Part shown: piece by piece, positions 5,003 to 45,274 of the stretch
How the letters are laid out: every line of letters starts with the position of its first letter
Position numbering within the stretch: position 1 is the first letter of the stretch
Source: a virus
Length of the DNA stretch: 47,212 nt
Virus record (IMG/VR): IMGVR_UViG_3300042923_000285
Location: 1-47,212 of that record
Strand: one strand, 5' to 3'
Notes under the pieces: model-generated
Told to the model about the DNA's origin: nothing
Databases searched by the model: none
The model's input: only the letters and a program-made list of their open reading frames with translations
Made by a program: the position numbers and the translations under genes

Positions 5003-5328
5003 AACTAGGGCAGCAAGTTTGTTTCTCTCGGCATTGGGTGAAAAATCCGATGGGCATTGATCCAGCCGAACATACAGACAGCGAACGTTGCGAGTACAGC
5101 AAATTGATTTCGGTCGATTGTGGCCCGATGATTGGTATTGTCGTAGGCAAACGGAATCTTGGGACAATCACCACATTGGAGTTCCGTCGTCATTACAAGC
5201 GCATTGACGAGCCGGAGGAAACGTATTGGACGGCAACAAAAACCAAACTCGAATCATTCTACCTCGTAGCCTGCGACTTAAAGGGATTCTACAAGGTCAA
5301 AGAAGCGGATTTGTGGGTGGTCGAATGA
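4999..5328 (+). CDS. hypothetical protein, 109 aa
   Basis: The ATG at 4999 overlaps the loader's stop and its own end overlaps the next start, so it sits in a tight operon between the loader and the Mom-like gene. Mostly beta-strand by eye (ISVDCGPMIGIVVGKRNLG, TTLEFRRHYK). No family recognised. Confidence 0.75.
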   Translation: MKLGQQVCFSRHWVKNPMGIDPAEHTDSERCEYSKLISVDCGPMIGIVVGKRNLGTITTLEFRRHYKRIDEPEETYWTATKTKLESFYLVACDLKGFYKVKEADLWVVE

Positions 5329-5960
5329 CTAAATTGCGAGAACTGTACGAGATTAAAGAGATTGATTATCAGACAGCGATGAAAGTTGTTATAAAGTCCC
5401 ACTATTTGCACAGGAAAGCACCTTGCAGCTACGCTTTCGGATTGTTCGAAAAAGAGTCGGGAGAAATGGCGGGAGTCATCGTTTACGGAACGCCATCGTC
5501 CGCCCCTTTGCGCCGTGGATTGTGCGGGGTAGAGGAAAAAGACAATGTTATAGAATTGACTCGTCTGTGGATTAAAGACGATACTCCGAAAAATGCCGAA
5601 AGTTTTTTGATCGGAAACACAATCAAACGCGTAGACAAAGAAATTGTCGTTTCATACGCGGAAGATCAAAGGGGTCATATTGGTATTGTTTATCAGGCGA
5701 CTAACTGGATTTACACAGGGTTATCTGCTAAGCGAACCAACTGGACCGTAGAAGGTTTGGACAAGCATTGCCAAACACTCGCGGACAAATACACAGCAAA
5801 AGAGATTCGCGAAGAGTTCGGAGATAAATTTTCGTTAGTGGATAGACCACGAAAACATCGGTATGTGTTTTTCAATTGCAATAAATACAGGAAAAAGGAG
5901 TTGCTTCAAAAACTGAGATACAAGGTCGAAAGGTATCCGAAAAGGGAGGCGCAGGAATGA
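5325..5960 (+). CDS. Mom-like DNA adenine modification protein, 211 aa
   Basis: Phage Mu Mom is a GNAT-fold enzyme that adds a carbamoylmethyl group to adenine and shields phage DNA from restriction. This protein has features I associate with that family: SHYLHRKAP (about 25-33), VIVYGTPSS (51-59), IELTRLWI (76-83) and a long SYAEDQRGHIGIVYQATNW block (110-128), where the acetyl-CoA site of GNAT proteins would lie. Length is close to Mu Mom (about 230). I chose ATG 5325 (overlapping the previous stop) over an upstream frame opening that lies inside the previous gene. No Com-like activator was recognised beside it. Confidence 0.75.
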   Translation: MTKLRELYEIKEIDYQTAMKVVIKSHYLHRKAPCSYAFGLFEKESGEMAGVIVYGTPSSAPLRRGLCGVEEKDNVIELTRLWIKDDTPKNAESFLIGNTIKRVDKEIVVSYAEDQRGHIGIVYQATNWIYTGLSAKRTNWTVEGLDKHCQTLADKYTAKEIREEFGDKFSLVDRPRKHRYVFFNCNKYRKKELLQKLRYKVERYPKREAQE

Positions 5961-14084: not shown

Positions 14085-14570
14085 ATGGCGGGAAAAAGAG
14101 GAAGAAAACCATTATGGGATGAAATGGACATGCCGAGTAGGTTGGAAGCTGTCAGAGGTTGGGCGAAACTCGGTTCTACTGATATCGAAATGTGCGGAAT
14201 GTTAGAGATTTCACAGGAGACATTCTACAAGTGGAAGCGCGAAAAGCCTGAATTCGCGGAGGCAATAAAGGCTGGAAAGCATGTGAGCAATGGTGAATTG
14301 GTCAATGGTGCGTTCAAACAGGCTAACGGGTTCTTTGTCACTGTAACCGAACCGATGAAGCTACGAGACGTTGACGGCTCTGAATTTATCGAAATGGTGA
14401 CGTACGAAAAATACGTTCCGCCAAATAACACGATGGCTATTTTCATGCTCAAAAATCGACTGTCGAAAGACTTCAAAGATAAGCAAGAGGTTAATCACTC
14501 CGGCGCATTGCCGATAAATATTGTGGTGGACTATGGCGGTGGTGACGATGACTCAAGCTCAGACAGTTAA
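14085..14570 (+). CDS. terS: terminase small subunit, 161 aa
   Basis: Recognises phage DNA for packaging and stimulates the large subunit. The N-terminal HTH (ARGWAKLGSTD-like segment, then IEMCGMLEISQETFYKWKRE at about 34-53) is the standard small-terminase DNA-binding domain. The C-terminus is an acidic Ser/Asp tail. ATG 14085 follows GGGAGGG. Its end overlaps the large subunit gene. Confidence 0.9.
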   Translation: MAGKRGRKPLWDEMDMPSRLEAVRGWAKLGSTDIEMCGMLEISQETFYKWKREKPEFAEAIKAGKHVSNGELVNGAFKQANGFFVTVTEPMKLRDVDGSEFIEMVTYEKYVPPNNTMAIFMLKNRLSKDFKDKQEVNHSGALPINIVVDYGGGDDDSSSDS

Positions 14571-15810
14571 GGTCGAGTTCAACGCTCATTTCCGCGACCT
14601 AAACGAATGCCGTAAGCGGTACAGAGCGATTAAGGGTAGTGCTGGGAGTGGAAAAAGCGTCAACGTCGCGCAGGACTACATCATCAAACTATCCGATCCA
14701 AAGTACAAAGGTGCAAACCTACTTTGTGTTCGGAAGGTAAACGAGACGAACCGGAACAGTACGTTTGCAGAGCTTACGGGAGCCATTAACCGCATTTTTG
14801 GTAGTCGAGCGGAGGAATACTGGCGCGTGACACAAAGCCCGCTCATGCTACAAAGCAGAGTCACCGGAAACAGCGTCATTTTCCGAGGTGTGAACGATGC
14901 CAGGGATCGAGAAAAGCTGAAATCCATCACATTCCCGCATGGCAAACTTACGTGGATCTGGAATGAGGAAGCGACGGAGCTGCAAGAGTCTGACGTGGAT
15001 ATTCTCGATGACCGTTTGCGCGGCAAATTGGATAACCCGTATTTGTTTTATCAGATGACATTCACATTCAATCCAGTCAGTGCCACACATTGGATTAAAC
15101 GGAAGTATTTCGACTACCAGAGTGAGGATATATTCACTCACCACTCGACCTATTTGCAGAACCGCTTCATCGATGACGCTTACCATCGTCGTATGATGAT
15201 GCGTAAAGAGCAGGACCCAGAGGGCTACGCCGTATATGGCCTCGGTGATTGGGGAGAGCTTGGTGGGTTGATCTTGACGAATTTCAAAGTCAAAGAGTTC
15301 GAGACGGATTTCCAATACTTTGACTCGAAGAACTACGCGCAAGATTTCGGATTCAATCATGCGAATGCGATCCTAGACGTTGGTTGGAAGGACGGCGCGT
15401 TGTACATTTGCGACGAGATTTACGTCCACGAGAAAGAGCCGAACGAAATCATTGCATTGGCGCAGGAAAAGGACATAAGCAAACGAATAACAATGTGGTG
15501 CGATTCCGCCGAACCTGGAACAATCAAAATGTGGAAGACGGCAGGTTACAACGCAAAGGCAGTGAAGAAAGAACAGGGTAGCGTGAACGCTCAGATTCGT
15601 TTTTTGAAGAGTATCAAAATATTCGTTCATCCCAGATGCGTCAATACGATAAAGGAATTGCAACAGTGGAAATGGAAAAAGGATCAAAAGACAGGTCTGT
15701 TCTTGGACGAGCCTGTCGAAATTTTCGATGATGCTATGGCGGCACTTCGGTACAGCGTTGAAGAGAAGCGATTGAGAAAAGGGGAACTGAAAGCAGTTCC
15801 GTCACTGTAG
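14548..15810 (+). CDS. terL: terminase large subunit, 420 aa
   Basis: The packaging motor ATPase and nuclease. Walker A is GSAGSGKS (about 30-37) and Walker B LTWIWNEE (about 134-141); the nuclease domain has QDFGFNHANAILDVG, CDSAEPGT and FDDAMAALRY, supplying the acidic metal ligands. This is the PBSX/SPP1-like type, usually headful packaging, which fits a circularly permuted genome. The start is uncertain: ATG 14548 or ATG 14533, both inside the small subunit gene. Confidence 0.95.
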   Translation: MTQAQTVKVEFNAHFRDLNECRKRYRAIKGSAGSGKSVNVAQDYIIKLSDPKYKGANLLCVRKVNETNRNSTFAELTGAINRIFGSRAEEYWRVTQSPLMLQSRVTGNSVIFRGVNDARDREKLKSITFPHGKLTWIWNEEATELQESDVDILDDRLRGKLDNPYLFYQMTFTFNPVSATHWIKRKYFDYQSEDIFTHHSTYLQNRFIDDAYHRRMMMRKEQDPEGYAVYGLGDWGELGGLILTNFKVKEFETDFQYFDSKNYAQDFGFNHANAILDVGWKDGALYICDEIYVHEKEPNEIIALAQEKDISKRITMWCDSAEPGTIKMWKTAGYNAKAVKKEQGSVNAQIRFLKSIKIFVHPRCVNTIKELQQWKWKKDQKTGLFLDEPVEIFDDAMAALRYSVEEKRLRKGELKAVPSL

Positions 15811-41005: not shown

Positions 41006-41117
41006 GTCGGAGAAGATCCGACTTCCTGAGAATTATTACACCCATATGAGCATAGACTCTCCTTGGAGAGTCTAAGCAAACCCGATCCAGTCAAACGAGG
41101 CTGGATTTTTTATTTTT
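41006..41117 (+). other. triple-hairpin 3' region ending in a terminator
   Basis: GTCGGA/TCCGAC (41006-41011 / 41017-41022), AGACTCTC/GAGAGTCT (41054-41061 / 41066-41073), then terminator ATCCAG/CTGGAT (41085-41090 / 41101-41106) with a T-rich tail. It follows the 149-aa gene and may be a stable 3' UTR or a separate RNA. Confidence 0.6.
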
Positions 41118-41127
41118 CGTCGGTTCT

Positions 41128-41153
41128 TATGACATGCCATAGCATCATATATT
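41128..41153 (+). promoter_or_regulatory. candidate operator/promoter of the conjugation-like module
   Basis: TATGA (41128-41132) and TCATA (41145-41149) are inverted around nested ATGC/GCAT, overlapping a -10-like TATATT (41148-41153). The -35 is weak. An RHH protein is encoded 30 bp downstream and may bind here; inference. Confidence 0.45.
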
Positions 41154-41183
41154 TTCGACAAAGAGCCGAAAGGGGTTAACAAC

Positions 41184-41372
41184 ATGGCGACGATGAAAAG
41201 TAAGACAGTCGGATTCAATATCGAGAGCGAAGAGGAACGTCTATTGCTGGATCACGCCAACAAGCAAACGAATTTTTCCGAGTACGTCCGGCAACTTATG
41301 CGCCAAGATATCCAAAGACAAAAAGCTCGGATTGCTCCGAGCCAGTCACAGGGAATCAGAATCCAACTATAG
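41184..41372 (+). CDS. ribbon-helix-helix protein (plasmid-type), 62 aa
   Basis: ATG 41184 follows AAAGGGGTTAAC. MKSKTVGFNIESEEERLLLDHANKQT (two pieces) followed by FSEYVRQLMRQDIQRQK is a short strand plus two helices, the RHH layout common in plasmid copy-control, partition and conjugation regulators. It would bind DNA as a dimer and regulate the module that follows. The last six bases overlap the antisense peptide gene. Confidence 0.78.
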   Translation: MATMKSKTVGFNIESEEERLLLDHANKQTNFSEYVRQLMRQDIQRQKARIAPSQSQGIRIQL

Positions 41373-41441
41373 GAGCGTACCCACCCAATTAACAACAGCG
41401 CCCACAGCTCCACCCACAGCCAGCCCGAGAAGAATGTGCAT
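41367..41441 (-). CDS. antisense 24-aa hydrophobic peptide
   Basis: On the - strand, AAAGGAGG (41451-41458 complement) lies nine bases before an ATG (41441-41439) that opens a 24-codon frame ending at TAG (41369-41367). The peptide, MHILLGLAVGGAVGAVVNWV..., is one Gly/Val/Ala-rich membrane helix. The bases are otherwise non-coding on the + strand apart from the end of the RHH gene. It resembles the size and composition of type I toxin or small membrane peptides; the - strand promoter is unclear. The only - strand gene proposed here. Confidence 0.5.
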   Translation of the reverse strand: MHILLGLAVGGAVGAVVNWVGTLL

Positions 41442-41522
41442 TTGACAACGCCTCCTTTGTTTTTGGTGCAGTAAACAGTATGCCCGTTTGATTTGACTTC
41501 ATACATCGAGAGGGGAATGGAT

Positions 41523-41885
41523 ATGAGAACAGAGGTATTGGACTGGAATTCGTTCATGAGTGGAGAGGTAAAGGTGAAGGTGCATCCAAAACAAGTTGCG
41601 GGAATCGTGGTTAAGTCCCTTGTTGGCGGACATTTGTTTTTCATCCCAACAAATGCGCTGGCTGCTGGAGCTGCTGGAGCTAGTAGCGCAGCGTCGTGGG
41701 CAAAGATATTCGCTGCGCTCATGCTTATGGCTGACTGGACGGCGGGCGGTGTCATTATGTTTTGTGGAGCAATGTGGATGTTCGGGCATAGAACAAAGGC
41801 GATTGAGGGATTGATTTCCGGCGCAATCGGATACATCATCATTCGCCACGCAATGGATATCCGCGATTGGCTCAAAGGGATATAG
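41523..41885 (+). CDS. VirB2/TrbC-like prepilin, 120 aa
   Basis: The layout matches type IV secretion prepilins: a long leader with a hydrophobic stretch (about 26-42), an AxA-type cleavage site in NALAAGAAG (about 44-52), then two membrane helices (about 61-85 and 94-110) with a short basic loop (GHRTKA) between them. The mature length of about 70 residues is the usual VirB2 size. ATG 41523 is seven bases after GAGAGGGG. No sequence-level match can be claimed from reading alone. Confidence 0.65.
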   Translation: MRTEVLDWNSFMSGEVKVKVHPKQVAGIVVKSLVGGHLFFIPTNALAAGAAGASSAASWAKIFAALMLMADWTAGGVIMFCGAMWMFGHRTKAIEGLISGAIGYIIIRHAMDIRDWLKGI

Positions 41886-41897
41886 GGAGGCGATGAC

Positions 41898-42290
41898 ATG
41901 CAACTGAAAATCAATGGCGTTTTGGCTGCTCCTGCCGATCCGATTCCACCGTATCAATTCGGAAAAAGCGTGGGCGATACTCCATTCAGTGCATTCTGGA
42001 ATGACGTTGTAAGGGGTAATCAGGAATTGTGGGATTGGCACAGCCCGTTTTGGGAAGGGAATAAAGAAGTGGTAAGGCAAAATTTCGATCCTGGTGCATG
42101 GATAGAAATAAAGCTGCAAACATTAGGCCATTTATTAGCGACAAATTCGCCGGAAATTATCACAGTCGGCATAGTGCTTTGCGCTTTGTTGGCAATGGTC
42201 GCCCCTTTGGTTGGCTCTCCTACCTACAAATGGATTGGCCGAACGTTCACGGTGTTCTTTTTGGGCGCTGTATGGCGTGTTTTCCTGTAG
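41898..42290 (+). CDS. two-helix membrane protein of the conjugation-like module, 130 aa
   Basis: The first 80 residues are soluble, acidic and Trp-rich; two membrane helices follow (about 86-106 and 113-130). ATG 41898 follows GGGAGGCG. It sits between the prepilin-like gene and the ATPase, as membrane-channel parts do in Gram-positive conjugation operons. Family not recognised. Confidence 0.68.
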   Translation: MQLKINGVLAAPADPIPPYQFGKSVGDTPFSAFWNDVVRGNQELWDWHSPFWEGNKEVVRQNFDPGAWIEIKLQTLGHLLATNSPEIITVGIVLCALLAMVAPLVGSPTYKWIGRTFTVFFLGAVWRVFL

Positions 42291-42299
42291 GGCGCATAT

Positions 42300-42395
42300 A
42301 TGACAATATGGCATTTTCTCCTTATCGCTTCTGCTGGCCTTATCGTCCATAGGTTGTGTGAATATTTCGGGTGGGGGAATGATGATGAAAATTGA
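42300..42395 (+). CDS. single-helix membrane miniprotein, 31 aa
   Basis: ATG 42300 gives MTIWHFLLIASAGLIVHRLC..., one membrane helix and an acidic tail, and its stop lies inside the ATPase gene start. The ribosome site is poor (TAGGGCG), so confidence is limited. Fits the compact module. Confidence 0.45.
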   Translation: MTIWHFLLIASAGLIVHRLCEYFGWGNDDEN

Positions 42396-44745
42396 GATAG
42401 TTCGCCCAAACATGACGTTGTTCAGAATCACTCCAGATAAAGGAGTCACTAACAACACGAACAAAAAGTTCTGGCGACTCATGCATGAATTGTTGTCAAT
42501 GGATCACTCGATTAAGGACCGAATTGAACGCGACGGCCTGACATTCCGTTACAGACTGCGAGGAAACATTTGGTTTGACATGGTGGCTCGTGCCGAAGAG
42601 GTCGAAAGGGAAGGAGGCGCAAAGGAGACAGTTCGTAAGGTTGAATTTTACATGGCGTGTCCTGACTATTTCGCCTCAACAATCAAAAGTAAAATGATTG
42701 ACCGTTATCCACAGGCAACAGTGGAAATTGTGGATAAATCAACCATCGCTGTGCCGGATTCAGCCGAAATCATCGAGTACAAATACAAACGGCATGATAT
42801 CTTTTCGCTCAATTGCAACGACACGGAACAGACAACACCGATTTCCTCGTTGCTGAATGCCGCGTATGACTTGCAAGGTGGGGACTTCATGCGCTTCTCT
42901 GTATGTCTGGAACGAGTGGACCGGAAGAAGTGGAAGGGGCTGGCCGATTTTGGGTGGTCCCAGGTCGAAAAGAAGCGAGTTCCTAGTCGCGTTCGCTTCG
43001 AAGCATCGAAAGTAGCGGAAGGGCTTGCGGACGTTGCTAAATTCCTAGCGTTCGAGGCGAAAGGGATTCTAGACGACGTGCTACAAGCCATCCGAAATTC
43101 ATTTTTTAAAAATGACTCTGCTCCCGTTCCTGACAAACCAAAGATCACCTTCCACTCAAAAGAATATGACAGCCTAGTGTCTAACGGTGATTTGTCCTTG
43201 TCGAGAAAGAAACAATACGAGCCCGTTTTCGCTGCATCTGTCCGACTAGCGGTCGATTCGGAGGACAAAACGCGTAAACATTTGATGGCTAATTCGGGAA
43301 CGGCCTCCCTGAGTGAATTGAAGGGGGCAAATAGCCTCGAAGCACACAAGGTGCGGGTAAATATCAGATCAAAGCACATCGAGGAAATGAACACGCTACA
43401 GAGCGTCGTAGGACACGATCCAGACCGGAATATCATGAGCTGCAAGGAGATCGGTAAATTGAATCAATACCCGACTAGGGAATTGCAGATGAAATATGCT
43501 GATTTGCTGGATGTGAAGACGGTGACAGAAACTGATATTGCGAAAGAATTGCAAGGGGATGGAATGTATATCGGATACGCCACGCAAAAGAGCGAGAAGG
43601 TCCATGTATCACAACCAACAAAGCGATTGGATAAGGTGGGTGTCGACATTCTTGTGCAGACGAGGATAGGCATAGGGCCGCCTGGGAGTGGAAAGTCTAC
43701 ACTTGGAACCAAACTGATTGTCGAAGCGGTCAACAATGGATTCGGTGGACTTTACATCGATCCTGCCAAGGGTAGCGTTGGTGACGAAATCGAAAAGGCG
43801 CTGCCTCCAGCGAAAGTGGAGCGTTACCGCTTGGGTCAAATCAAGATGGCGTTGGATTTCCGCGAGGTCAAACATTCACCAAAGGCCAAGAATAGACTGG
43901 CAAAAGTCATCCTCTCCCTATTTTCCATGGAATCAGACGACGCGAAGCGGACGGAACGGTTTATAAAGGCGGCGGTATTCGGGATGCAGACGGGTAGGAT
44001 ATCCGAAATCATACGCATTTTCACGGACGGAGATTATCGTAGTAGCTGTATTTCGAAAATGCCGGAGGGATTCATACACCGAATTACGCTGGAGCAGTTT
44101 GGCGAAGAGTCCGACGCTATGCAGAGGCGCATACTCGACCCGATATTGACACGGCTGGATTTCATTCTAGGTGACGAGGATTTGGCGGAGTGGATGGATT
44201 GCGAGGAAGGAATAGACATGGTGGAAATATTCCAGAAGAAAAAAGCAATCATCATCGACATTCCCAAACGCATATTTGGCAAGGAAGGAATTGAGTTGAT
44301 CGCCAATCTTTTGACACTCAAAATGGATTTGGCTATGGAGTTGCGACCGGACGACAAACAAGATCCATTCTGGATCGTTCTTGACGAGCCTCACCAATAC
44401 CAGAAGTCGCAGAAGATATGGGAAAACGCGGTTGTCGAGGCTCGCAAGTATCGCGTGTCATACGTATTCCTCTTCCATGAGTGGCTGCAATTGGATTATA
44501 AATTGCGTCATATCGTCAAATCTGCCAATCCTCATATATCCATTTTTGCCGGAACAAGTAAACACATTTGGAACGACTTCAAAGAGGACGTTTATCCTCT
44601 CGATGTGGACGACGTGTTGCGCTTACCTCTCCACCACGCGGTAAATGTCATCCAGACGAAAATAGGGCCGAAGACAATGATACTCAAAATGGCGGACACC
44701 AAAGACAAAAGACCAGCAGACAAACCACTCGACGAGGCTGTATAA
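42385..44745 (+). CDS. VirB4/HerA-type conjugation-like ATPase, 786 aa
   Basis: A large P-loop ATPase of the type that powers DNA or protein transport in type IV secretion. Walker A is GPPGSGKST (about 431-439), preceded by IGYATQKSEKVHVS; Walker B is WIVLDEPHQY (D667, E668), and FLFHEWLQL follows as a sensor-like segment. A YIDPAKGS strand (near 459) after Walker A is typical of the HerA/FtsK/VirD4 superfamily. The N-terminal 400 residues look like those of Gram-positive plasmid ATPases (VEFYMACPDYFAST near 87). ATG 42385 follows GGGTGGGGG; ATGs at 42379 and 42382 are alternatives. Not a terminase: the packaging motor is encoded at 14548. Confidence 0.82.
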   Translation: MKIEIVRPNMTLFRITPDKGVTNNTNKKFWRLMHELLSMDHSIKDRIERDGLTFRYRLRGNIWFDMVARAEEVEREGGAKETVRKVEFYMACPDYFASTIKSKMIDRYPQATVEIVDKSTIAVPDSAEIIEYKYKRHDIFSLNCNDTEQTTPISSLLNAAYDLQGGDFMRFSVCLERVDRKKWKGLADFGWSQVEKKRVPSRVRFEASKVAEGLADVAKFLAFEAKGILDDVLQAIRNSFFKNDSAPVPDKPKITFHSKEYDSLVSNGDLSLSRKKQYEPVFAASVRLAVDSEDKTRKHLMANSGTASLSELKGANSLEAHKVRVNIRSKHIEEMNTLQSVVGHDPDRNIMSCKEIGKLNQYPTRELQMKYADLLDVKTVTETDIAKELQGDGMYIGYATQKSEKVHVSQPTKRLDKVGVDILVQTRIGIGPPGSGKSTLGTKLIVEAVNNGFGGLYIDPAKGSVGDEIEKALPPAKVERYRLGQIKMALDFREVKHSPKAKNRLAKVILSLFSMESDDAKRTERFIKAAVFGMQTGRISEIIRIFTDGDYRSSCISKMPEGFIHRITLEQFGEESDAMQRRILDPILTRLDFILGDEDLAEWMDCEEGIDMVEIFQKKKAIIIDIPKRIFGKEGIELIANLLTLKMDLAMELRPDDKQDPFWIVLDEPHQYQKSQKIWENAVVEARKYRVSYVFLFHEWLQLDYKLRHIVKSANPHISIFAGTSKHIWNDFKEDVYPLDVDDVLRLPLHHAVNVIQTKIGPKTMILKMADTKDKRPADKPLDEAV

Positions 44746-44803
44746 TAATTGCATTCGTCAAAAATTACTGAGAACGAACGACAAACCGTCATTTTCCTTC
44801 TAT

Positions 44804-44832
44804 CCCAAGGCTCGTCACCTTGGGGTTTTTTT
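44804..44832 (+). terminator. rho-independent terminator of the conjugation-like module
   Basis: CCCAAGG (44804-44810), loop CTCGTCA, CCTTGGG (44818-44824), then a run of seven T. It closes the module opened near 41.13 kb. Bases 44746-44803 hold no gene. Confidence 0.93.
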
Positions 44833-44865: not shown

Positions 44866-45000
44866 GTGGAAGCGGTTGTACTCGTTCTATTCTTGGCGAT
44901 AATGACTATGTTCATGGTGGTGGCTGGCGGATTCAACGATACAATCGAACGGTTTTGTCGCATAGTGGAGACTCGCAAGCGTTGGAAGAACTCGGAATAA
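44866..45000 (+). CDS. small membrane protein, 44 aa
   Basis: GTG 44866 follows GAGGGGG. An N-terminal hydrophobic helix (VVLVLFLAIMTMFMVVAGG) and a basic, Trp-containing tail. It lies between two terminators, so it is expressed on its own; the promoter is not clear. Its stop codon is in the terminator loop. Confidence 0.6.
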   Translation: MEAVVLVLFLAIMTMFMVVAGGFNDTIERFCRIVETRKRWKNSE

Positions 45001-45043: not shown

Positions 45044-45073
45044 TTGACTGTACGTACGTATGTACATTATGAT
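45044..45073 (+). promoter_or_regulatory. promoter with GTAC-repeat operator for the recombination operon
   Basis: -35 TTGACT (45044-45049), 18-bp spacer, -10 TATGAT (45068-45073). The spacer is filled by four tandem GTAy units within the inverted repeat TGTAC (45049-45053) / GTACA (45062-45066). This is a typical target for a ribbon-helix-helix repressor, one of which is encoded just downstream, so autoregulation is likely. Confidence 0.75.
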
Positions 45074-45106
45074 AAGGACAAGTTGATAGAGAAGGGAGGA
45101 ACGAGA

Positions 45107-45274
45107 TTGAGAGCGGATGCGGTAGAGAAGTCCAGAATCGTCGCAGATGTGCCGACGGAGATCAAGCGGAAGCTGTTAGCGATTGCTGCAAGCGAAGATA
45201 ATTACAATGCTACAGAGTCGATCAAGCGTATTATCGACGCGGAACACGAGCGTTTGGGTCTATCGATTAAATAA
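45107..45274 (+). CDS. ribbon-helix-helix regulator, 55 aa
   Basis: TTG 45107 is six bases after GGGAGGA; the frame also opens upstream at 45044, but that lies in the promoter. SRIVADVPTEIKRKLLAIAA, then TESIKRIIDAEHERLG, gives the strand-helix-helix of CopG/Arc-type repressors. First gene of the unit with the exonuclease and RecT, so it probably represses that operon through the GTAC repeats. Confidence 0.75.
   Translation: MRADAVEKSRIVADVPTEIKRKLLAIAASEDNYNATESIKRIIDAEHERLGLSIK

Follow-up and report, generated by a model that had tools for sequence, protein, structure and literature searches.

A conjugation-derived module of Bacillales phages with a probable role in membrane DNA translocation

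Why would a phage keep an operon assembled from conjugation parts? Conjugation and phage infection are usually viewed as separate gene-transfer routes. The question is raised by a viral stretch of 47,212 nucleotides (IMG/VR record IMGVR_UViG_3300042923_000285, positions 1 to 47,212; this whole stretch is called the window below), which encodes, at 41,128 to 44,832, a ribbon-helix-helix (RHH) protein, a small prepilin-like protein, a two-helix membrane protein and a large ATPase. An earlier note, made from the sequence alone, described these genes as a terminator-bounded, conjugation-like unit, and our scans for open reading frames (ORFs) and terminators agree with those borders. We propose that the unit is probably a phage-encoded, conjugation-derived module for DNA translocation at the membrane, and that the movement of DNA across the envelope is its most likely role.

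The VirB2-like layout that the earlier note saw in the small protein was borne out by its relatives. The window protein aligns with phrog_5422 over its full length (residues 1–120, 9e-15), and is composed of a cytoplasmic N-terminus (EVLDWNSFMSGE), a hydrophobic stretch ending in ALAA, and two hydrophobic helices with the basic loop GHRTKA. In the family, a charged N-terminus with a motif like TEVIxFxxFMSGE is followed by a hydrophobic stretch usually ending in AxA and by two hydrophobic helices; the short loop between the helices is rich in basic residues. When 20 diverse homologues were searched with Pfam, 14 matched TrbC and 8 matched T4SS_pilin, and no further family was recurrent. The conjugative VirB2/TrbC pilins are alike in the hydrophobic leader, the two hydrophobic helices, the short basic loop and the profile matches, but the phage proteins score weakly, possess their own N-terminal motif and do not all have the leader. 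Judged by its sequence, the small protein qualifies as a predicted VirB2/TrbC-like prepilin. A regular-expression scan for signal-peptidase sites was too loose to serve as proof, and also matched inside helices.

The product of one homologue has been observed. Mass spectrometry of CsCl-purified particles of phage TP-84 identified TP84_47, but not the ATPase TP84_48 (PMC5889276). The TP84_47 gene sits outside the TP-84 structural cluster; from the detection it follows that its product is synthesised and comes out with the particles, not that it belongs to the virion. The annotated TP84_47 start (AQY55065.1; L004 3899-4333) seems to lie too far downstream, as the conserved N-terminal motif is found upstream in the same frame.

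The ATPase aligns with phrog_5156 over residues 3–779 (1e-163) and consists of an N-terminal domain (residues 1–424) and a motor domain (residues 425–775). The Walker motifs lie where the earlier note placed them, near 431 and 667: Walker A, GPPGSGKST, spans residues 431–439, and Walker B, WIVLDE, ends at D667-E668. The Walker lysine and the catalytic glutamate are invariant in the family. The residue after the Walker A lysine and the first acidic residue of Walker B (438 and 667 in the window) covary, with GK[ST] accompanying DE in 73 sequences and GKD accompanying NE in 17, and the mixed types in none. The GKD/NE variant occurs in the SPP1, GBK2, LysYB1, MMB025 and Slash groups, and the exchange is a predicted coupled charge swap at the magnesium site.

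Pfam, NCBIfam and PADLOC matched the ATPase only with P-loop fragments, with nothing relevant from NCBIfam; a single-sequence phmmer search against the PDB gave chance-level matches only, and a PDB profile search gave weak matches to TdpA (4e-4) and HerA (4e-3). Since these family libraries were uninformative, the relationship was drawn from structure and from profile-profile comparison. In a Foldseek search with the full-length AlphaFold2 model (pLDDT 82), ranks 1–13 were all TrwK/VirB4 of R388 (best E 1.8e-15 across ~870 columns), followed by HerA (1.8e-9) and TrwB (2.7e-9 across ~450 columns). With the N-terminal domain alone (424 residues), all 14 matches below 1e-3 were VirB4 chains.

The sequence comparison pointed to another line of descent. 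The phage profile aligned by hhalign with the ATPases in the coupling-protein position of Gram-positive integrative and conjugative elements (ICEs), at 99.4% for locus L111 (E 6e-22, 696 columns), 99.1% for L112 and 98.9% for L115, and the homology covers both domains. The L111 protein itself matches TrwB_AAD_bind above the cut-off. Against the dedicated VirB4 of the same L111 element, the value was 24% and confined to the Walker A region, and against TrwK it was 0.6%; no sequence homology to VirB4, ConE or TcpF was found. Thus, TrwK and the window ATPase have a two-domain fold in common, but are related in sequence only at the Walker region. In the tree (unrooted, with several long branches), a fully supported split divides the ICE proteins from the module clade, and the window groups with locus L002. 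No transmembrane helix was predicted in the window ATPase, so the N-terminal transmembrane segments of coupling proteins (VirD4/TrwB/TcpA) were not found in it. Taken together, the model shows a predicted VirB4 fold and the profiles indicate descent shared with the coupling-position ATPases of Gram-positive ICEs. Of the earlier name, VirB4/HerA ATPase, the VirB4 part holds for the fold, where VirB4 fits over both domains and better than HerA or TrwB, but not for the descent, and "VirB4-fold, coupling-type" is the better name.

The ICE-like loci used here (L110, L111, L112 and L115) carry Replic_Relax or related genes, a VirB4 of their own and the VirB4-like ATPase in the coupling-protein position. 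In L111 and L112, the ATPase homologue directly precedes Replic_Relax, with a separate VirB4, a TcpE protein (recognised by Pfam in L111), a 6-7-transmembrane protein and M23 in the element. These loci possibly hold an undescribed relaxase/coupling pair.

The earlier note considered such a system not to be a normal phage component. This was contradicted by tblastn: the window ATPase found 58 phage records, none of which reached 60% identity and most of which came from Bacillus, Geobacillus and Lysinibacillus phages, and the SPP1-like and SPO1-like ATPases found 57 and 68 records. The module is common in Bacillales phages and not exceptional (for SPP1, see also PMC6316719). Its carriers include SPP1, SPO1, TP-84, GBK2, D6E, Slash-group phages, prophages and one plasmid, and the neighbourhood search proposed in the earlier note thus found the gene order recurring outside the window. 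Among 400 genomes drawn from the class of an Ornithinibacillus genome, 61 had a match to the ATPase with E <= 1e-20; over half of these matches are weak and probably due to other conjugation-type ATPases. A plasmid origin of the module was considered and rejected, with only three matches in PLSDB. One Alicyclobacillus dauci plasmid (NZ_CP104066.1, 99.7 kb, typed non-mobilizable) carries the module twice (L094/L095) through a repeated ~49-kb segment, together with an HK97-gp10-like phage morphogenesis gene, and is probably a dimeric phage-plasmid or its remnant.

The small genes follow the ATPase closely, and the doubt raised beforehand, that they might not co-occur with it consistently, was settled in favour of a module. 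After clustering at 85%, 29 non-redundant loci had 1.8 kb or more of sequence ahead of the ATPase gene; a prepilin-like ORF was found there in 29/29 and an RHH gene in 23/29, with order and strand kept. The count is somewhat circular, given that both profiles were built from ATPase neighbours, but this is offset by two independent checks: the profiles matched nowhere else in the 29 loci, and Pfam recovered TrbC. In many phages the module adjoins RecE/RecT, ERF or RecB genes; in many loci a ParM/Alp-like actin gene immediately precedes the RHH gene, and Replic_Relax is also a frequent neighbour. An adjoining ParM is lacking in the window and in the SPP1, TP-84 and Slash loci.

The prepilin also occurs with another motor. 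Homologues (1e-18 to 1e-33) were found in Andromedavirus, 276BB001-type phages, Silence, PK5.2 and MVC_VPHSA1, where the prepilin adjoins an FtsK/SpoIIIE-type ATPase and Replic_Relax; three of these five also have an RHH gene from the family of the window's RHH protein. Residues 99–414 of the PK5.2 ATPase are homologous to solved "DNA translocase coupling protein" chains (7e-21). From two different DNA-pump ATPases on one prepilin/RHH core we infer that the cargo is DNA, to which the ParM-like actins and Replic_Relax near other copies also point. The pair of alternative ATPases is a natural experiment on what a minimal machine resembling a type IV secretion system (T4SS) needs.

The two-helix protein belongs to a hairpin family with 22 ORFs near module ATPases and 0 elsewhere by hidden Markov model (HMM) search. 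In seven relatives an M23 peptidase is fused to its N-terminus, two recognised by Pfam and the others by motif. Peptidoglycan hydrolases are standard components of Gram-positive conjugation machines, and the fusions therefore tie the module to wall crossing. The hairpin gene is absent from many loci (TP-84, D6E, 031MP004), and the minimal set is thus RHH, prepilin and ATPase. The 31-aa membrane peptide suggested in the earlier note exists as an ORF, but its Shine-Dalgarno sequence is weak and L002, the nearest relative, lacks it, the two-helix gene of L002 overlapping the start of the ATPase gene. Slash-group loci carry a 44-46-aa, unrelated-looking membrane peptide at the position of the 31-aa ORF.

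The RHH protein matches four related PHROGs besides phrog_4223 (3e-7), and its relatives have the conserved core VxFNx(n)NFSxYVxxLIxxD. Upstream of the RHH genes, CATATCAT/ATGATATG occurs in 5 of 20 loci against 0.27 expected (at most 3 in 400 random draws), and ATCATATA, the window version of the motif, in 4 of 20 against 0.14 expected. We tentatively take the TGCCATAGCATCATATA block as a candidate operator bound by the RHH protein. No significant inverted repeat was found upstream of the window RHH gene. In roughly half of the 20 compared loci, a poly-T run like that of the upstream terminator is found ahead of the RHH gene.

How does the module compare with known systems? By HMM, gp31, gp31.1, gp31.2 and gp32 of SPP1 (SPP1-like locus L057) and the genes of GBK2 (GBK2-like locus L058) are RHH, prepilin, two-helix protein and ATPase in the order of the window. 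gp32 is ~29% identical to the window ATPase, with a GKD/NE site against the GKS/DE of the window. The 2018 reannotation of SPP1 described a dispensable gp32 resembling TrwB/VirB4/FtsK, proposed a possible membrane translocon with gp31.1 and/or gp31.2, noted the synteny with GBK2, and described gp31.1 and gp31.2 merely as having transmembrane segments (PMC6316719). Past that proposal, our literature search found no paper on what the SPP1 module genes do, and for SPO1 gp27.4 it found none. SPO1 is alike in its phrog_5156 ATPase (gp27.4, 22% identical to that of the window), a prepilin homologue (gp29.1) and an ALP actin (gp27.9), but differs in an additional Replic_Relax (gp27.3) and three small membrane peptides; it lacks an RHH protein of the window's family, gp27.8 belonging to another PHROG. 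The Andromedavirus/276BB001-type module (FtsK/TcpA-like ATPase, Replic_Relax, TrbC-like and ParG-like proteins) has a homologous prepilin and RHH protein, but another gene order and a non-VirB4 ATPase of the FtsK/coupling-protein family. The authors of the Andromedavirus paper remarked on plasmid- and conjugation-like genes (PMC9658697), as did those of the Tyrovirus paper, who read the region as plasmid-like (PMC9703825); the Tyrovirus genes themselves lie outside the present comparison. To these three accounts we add the grouping of the loci into one widespread module family, the VirB2-like sequence of the small protein, a predicted fold and a line of descent for the ATPase, the fusions to M23 and the exchange of one ATPase for another.

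The Gram-positive ICE L111 additionally has a separate AAA_10 VirB4, TcpE (Pfam), a 6-transmembrane protein, M23 and Replic_Relax, and L115 has a TcpF-type VirB4 and a 7-transmembrane protein; none of these is in the phage window. The archaeal Ced/Ted DNA-import systems resemble the module in having few genes, a VirB4-like ATPase and VirB2-like pilins (PMC9905601), but possess the 6-7-transmembrane, VirB6-like CedA/TedA.

Several points weigh against a translocation module. No window ORF has more than two predicted helices, which leaves no VirB6-like or CedA/TedA polytopic channel; VirB8 was not seen among the ORFs of the unit, for which no VirB8 profile was run; no dedicated VirB4 was found in the window; and the Replic_Relax HMM had no match there, with other relaxase families and the origin of transfer not searched over every ORF and the record possibly incomplete. 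A full conjugation channel is therefore not encoded in the window. As far as these searches go, the earlier note stands, which had seen no VirB6/VirB8 homologue or relaxase, but its further remark that no coupling protein is seen has to be changed: by descent, the ATPase is itself closest to coupling-position ATPases, and what the module lacks is a dedicated VirB4. Either the pore would be minimal, or the host or further genes of the phage would need to contribute. The module must not be classed as a complete conjugative T4SS, and a relaxase would at best lie outside the record or belong to an unsearched family. Furthermore, the TrbC match of the window prepilin falls under the curated cut-off, and the leader peptide is not clear in the prepilins of L002, the closest relative, L011 and L070, so that processing should not be taken for granted. 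The full-length ATPase matches have low global TM-scores (0.34), which may be due to a different domain orientation. In the laboratory, SPP1 can do without ORFs 31.2 and 32 (PMC6316719), and DNA transfer by the module is a prediction.

With these limits, the module might work as follows. The RHH protein would bind phage DNA, and probably its own promoter too. The prepilin, given its layout, would enter the membrane as a helical hairpin and oligomerise into a pore or a short pilus. The two-helix protein, fused to a hydrolase in some relatives, could help in building the pore and opening the wall. The ATPase, with its VirB4 fold and coupling-type descent, would dock on the prepilin/two-helix complex and drive DNA, or DNA with protein, across the envelope. 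Of the possible uses we rank one highest, though only tentatively: besides the virions, the module could give phage DNA a way out of an infected or lysogenic host and towards neighbouring cells. It is doubtful that lytic and temperate Bacillales phages alike pass their genomes from cell to neighbour without a virion, through a minimal channel of VirB2-like hairpins and one DNA-pump ATPase.

Other readings start from the same genes. In superinfection exclusion, the prepilin and the two-helix protein would sit in the membrane of the host, infected or lysogenic, and draw on the ATPase to stop phage or plasmid DNA from coming in, or to divert it. The genes are early-region membrane-protein genes, dispensable in SPP1, and exclusion has been suggested for such early genes (PMC6316719). 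The strictly lytic SPO1 and SPP1, where plasmid-like spread makes little sense, also carry the module. To our knowledge, exclusion devices need just one or two membrane proteins, and a VirB4-fold ATPase, an RHH protein, an M23 hydrolase, ParM and Replic_Relax go beyond such needs; moreover, both interchangeable ATPases are DNA-pump types, and we regard exclusion as unlikely. DNA movement in the opposite direction is conceivable, with a virion-borne or early-made prepilin forming a channel through which the ATPase pulls in the remaining genome or other DNA. The TP-84 prepilin homologue in purified particles (PMC5889276), the import of DNA by Ced/Ted with related parts (PMC9905601) and the adjoining RecE/RecT, ERF or RecB genes suit such an entry aid. 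It is nevertheless quite unlikely: gp31.2 and gp32 are dispensable in SPP1, the TP-84 detection could reflect co-purified membrane or pilus filaments and did not include the ATPase, and the window has no VirB6/CedA-like channel.

VirB4-fold ATPases and pilins also serve effector-secreting T4SSs, a precedent for a machine that delivers a phage protein to the cell surface or into neighbouring cells. Given that no conserved candidate cargo adjoins the module, and that its conserved neighbours are DNA-binding or DNA-moving proteins, protein secretion is decidedly unlikely. The actin genes that immediately precede the RHH gene in many copies of the module, and the plasmid-like reading of the Tyrovirus region (PMC9703825), could instead suggest a partition system of RHH protein and ParM, anchored by ATPase and hairpins with nothing crossing the envelope. 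The module is kept without an adjoining ParM in the four settings named above, and partition needs neither a pilin nor an M23 hydrolase, which makes segregation improbable. A HerA-NurA-like repair ATPase or a packaging motor with unrelated small neighbours, in line with the weak TdpA and HerA matches and the P-loop hits in Pfam and PADLOC, is extremely improbable. The N-terminal domain matches VirB4 only and not the HAS-barrel, the ATPase is strictly linked to prepilin and RHH, TerL is encoded separately (14521-15810), and no NurA was found adjoining the module, which is followed by RecE/RecT. The possibility raised in the earlier note, that the ATPase would match solely packaging or HerA-NurA families, is thus answered by the VirB4 fold and the ICE coupling-type homology.

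Translocation of DNA by a conjugation-derived module remains the reading that we favour. An operon of conjugation parts kept in strictly lytic phages suggests either virion-free DNA transfer or an unknown membrane step of infection. SPP1 and SPO1 are tractable phages of B. subtilis and gp32 is dispensable, making the function directly testable.

Features of the module and its borders in the window
Feature	Coordinates	Strand	Evidence
Intrinsic terminator of the preceding unit, upstream border	41084..41107	+	Terminator scan: 9-pair stem then TTTTTATTTTT
Putative operator of the RHH protein, TGCCATAGCATCATATA block (tentative)	41129..41151	.	k-mer enrichment
RHH DNA-binding protein, 62 aa	41184..41372	+	phrog_4223 3e-7
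VirB2/TrbC-like prepilin (predicted), 120 aa	41523..41885	+	phrog_5422 9e-15; Pfam TrbC 4.7e-4
Membrane protein with C-terminal two-helix hairpin, 130 aa	41898..42290	+	Family exclusive to ATPase neighbourhood
Candidate 31-aa membrane peptide, doubtful, overlaps ATPase start	42300..42395	+	ORF listing
VirB4-fold, coupling-type ATPase (predicted), 786 aa	42385..44745	+	phrog_5156 1e-163; AlphaFold2 model and Foldseek; hhalign; tree
Intrinsic terminator, downstream border	44802..44826	+	Terminator scan: 9-pair stem then TTTTTTTGTTT

Good Shine-Dalgarno sequences precede the RHH, prepilin, two-helix and ATPase genes. The ATPase has three in-frame ATGs (42379/42382/42385), and its length is counted from the third. 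The window comes from a tailed phage of Bacillales type, in which TerL, a portal like that of SPP1, capsid, tape measure and baseplate genes and a GH25 lysin were recognised; megablast against the phage collection found no near relative. Baseplate wedge and hub matches are consistent with a contractile tail, and a sheath protein was not identified among the window proteins.

Right after the module, 44866-45000 encodes a 44-aa single-helix peptide flanked by two terminators (MEAVVLVLFLAIMTMFMVVAGG...). It is followed by a second RHH-like protein (45044-45274, true start probably ~45107), unrelated to that of the module. Its good promoter, TTGACT-18-TATGAT, overlaps the palindrome GTACGTACGTATGTAC, and the gene lies right before RecE and RecT, a short way downstream of the module; this arrangement looks like an autoregulated recombination operon. 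At 5226-5960, the window further encodes a Mom-like DNA modification protein (phrog_1384, 1e-53).

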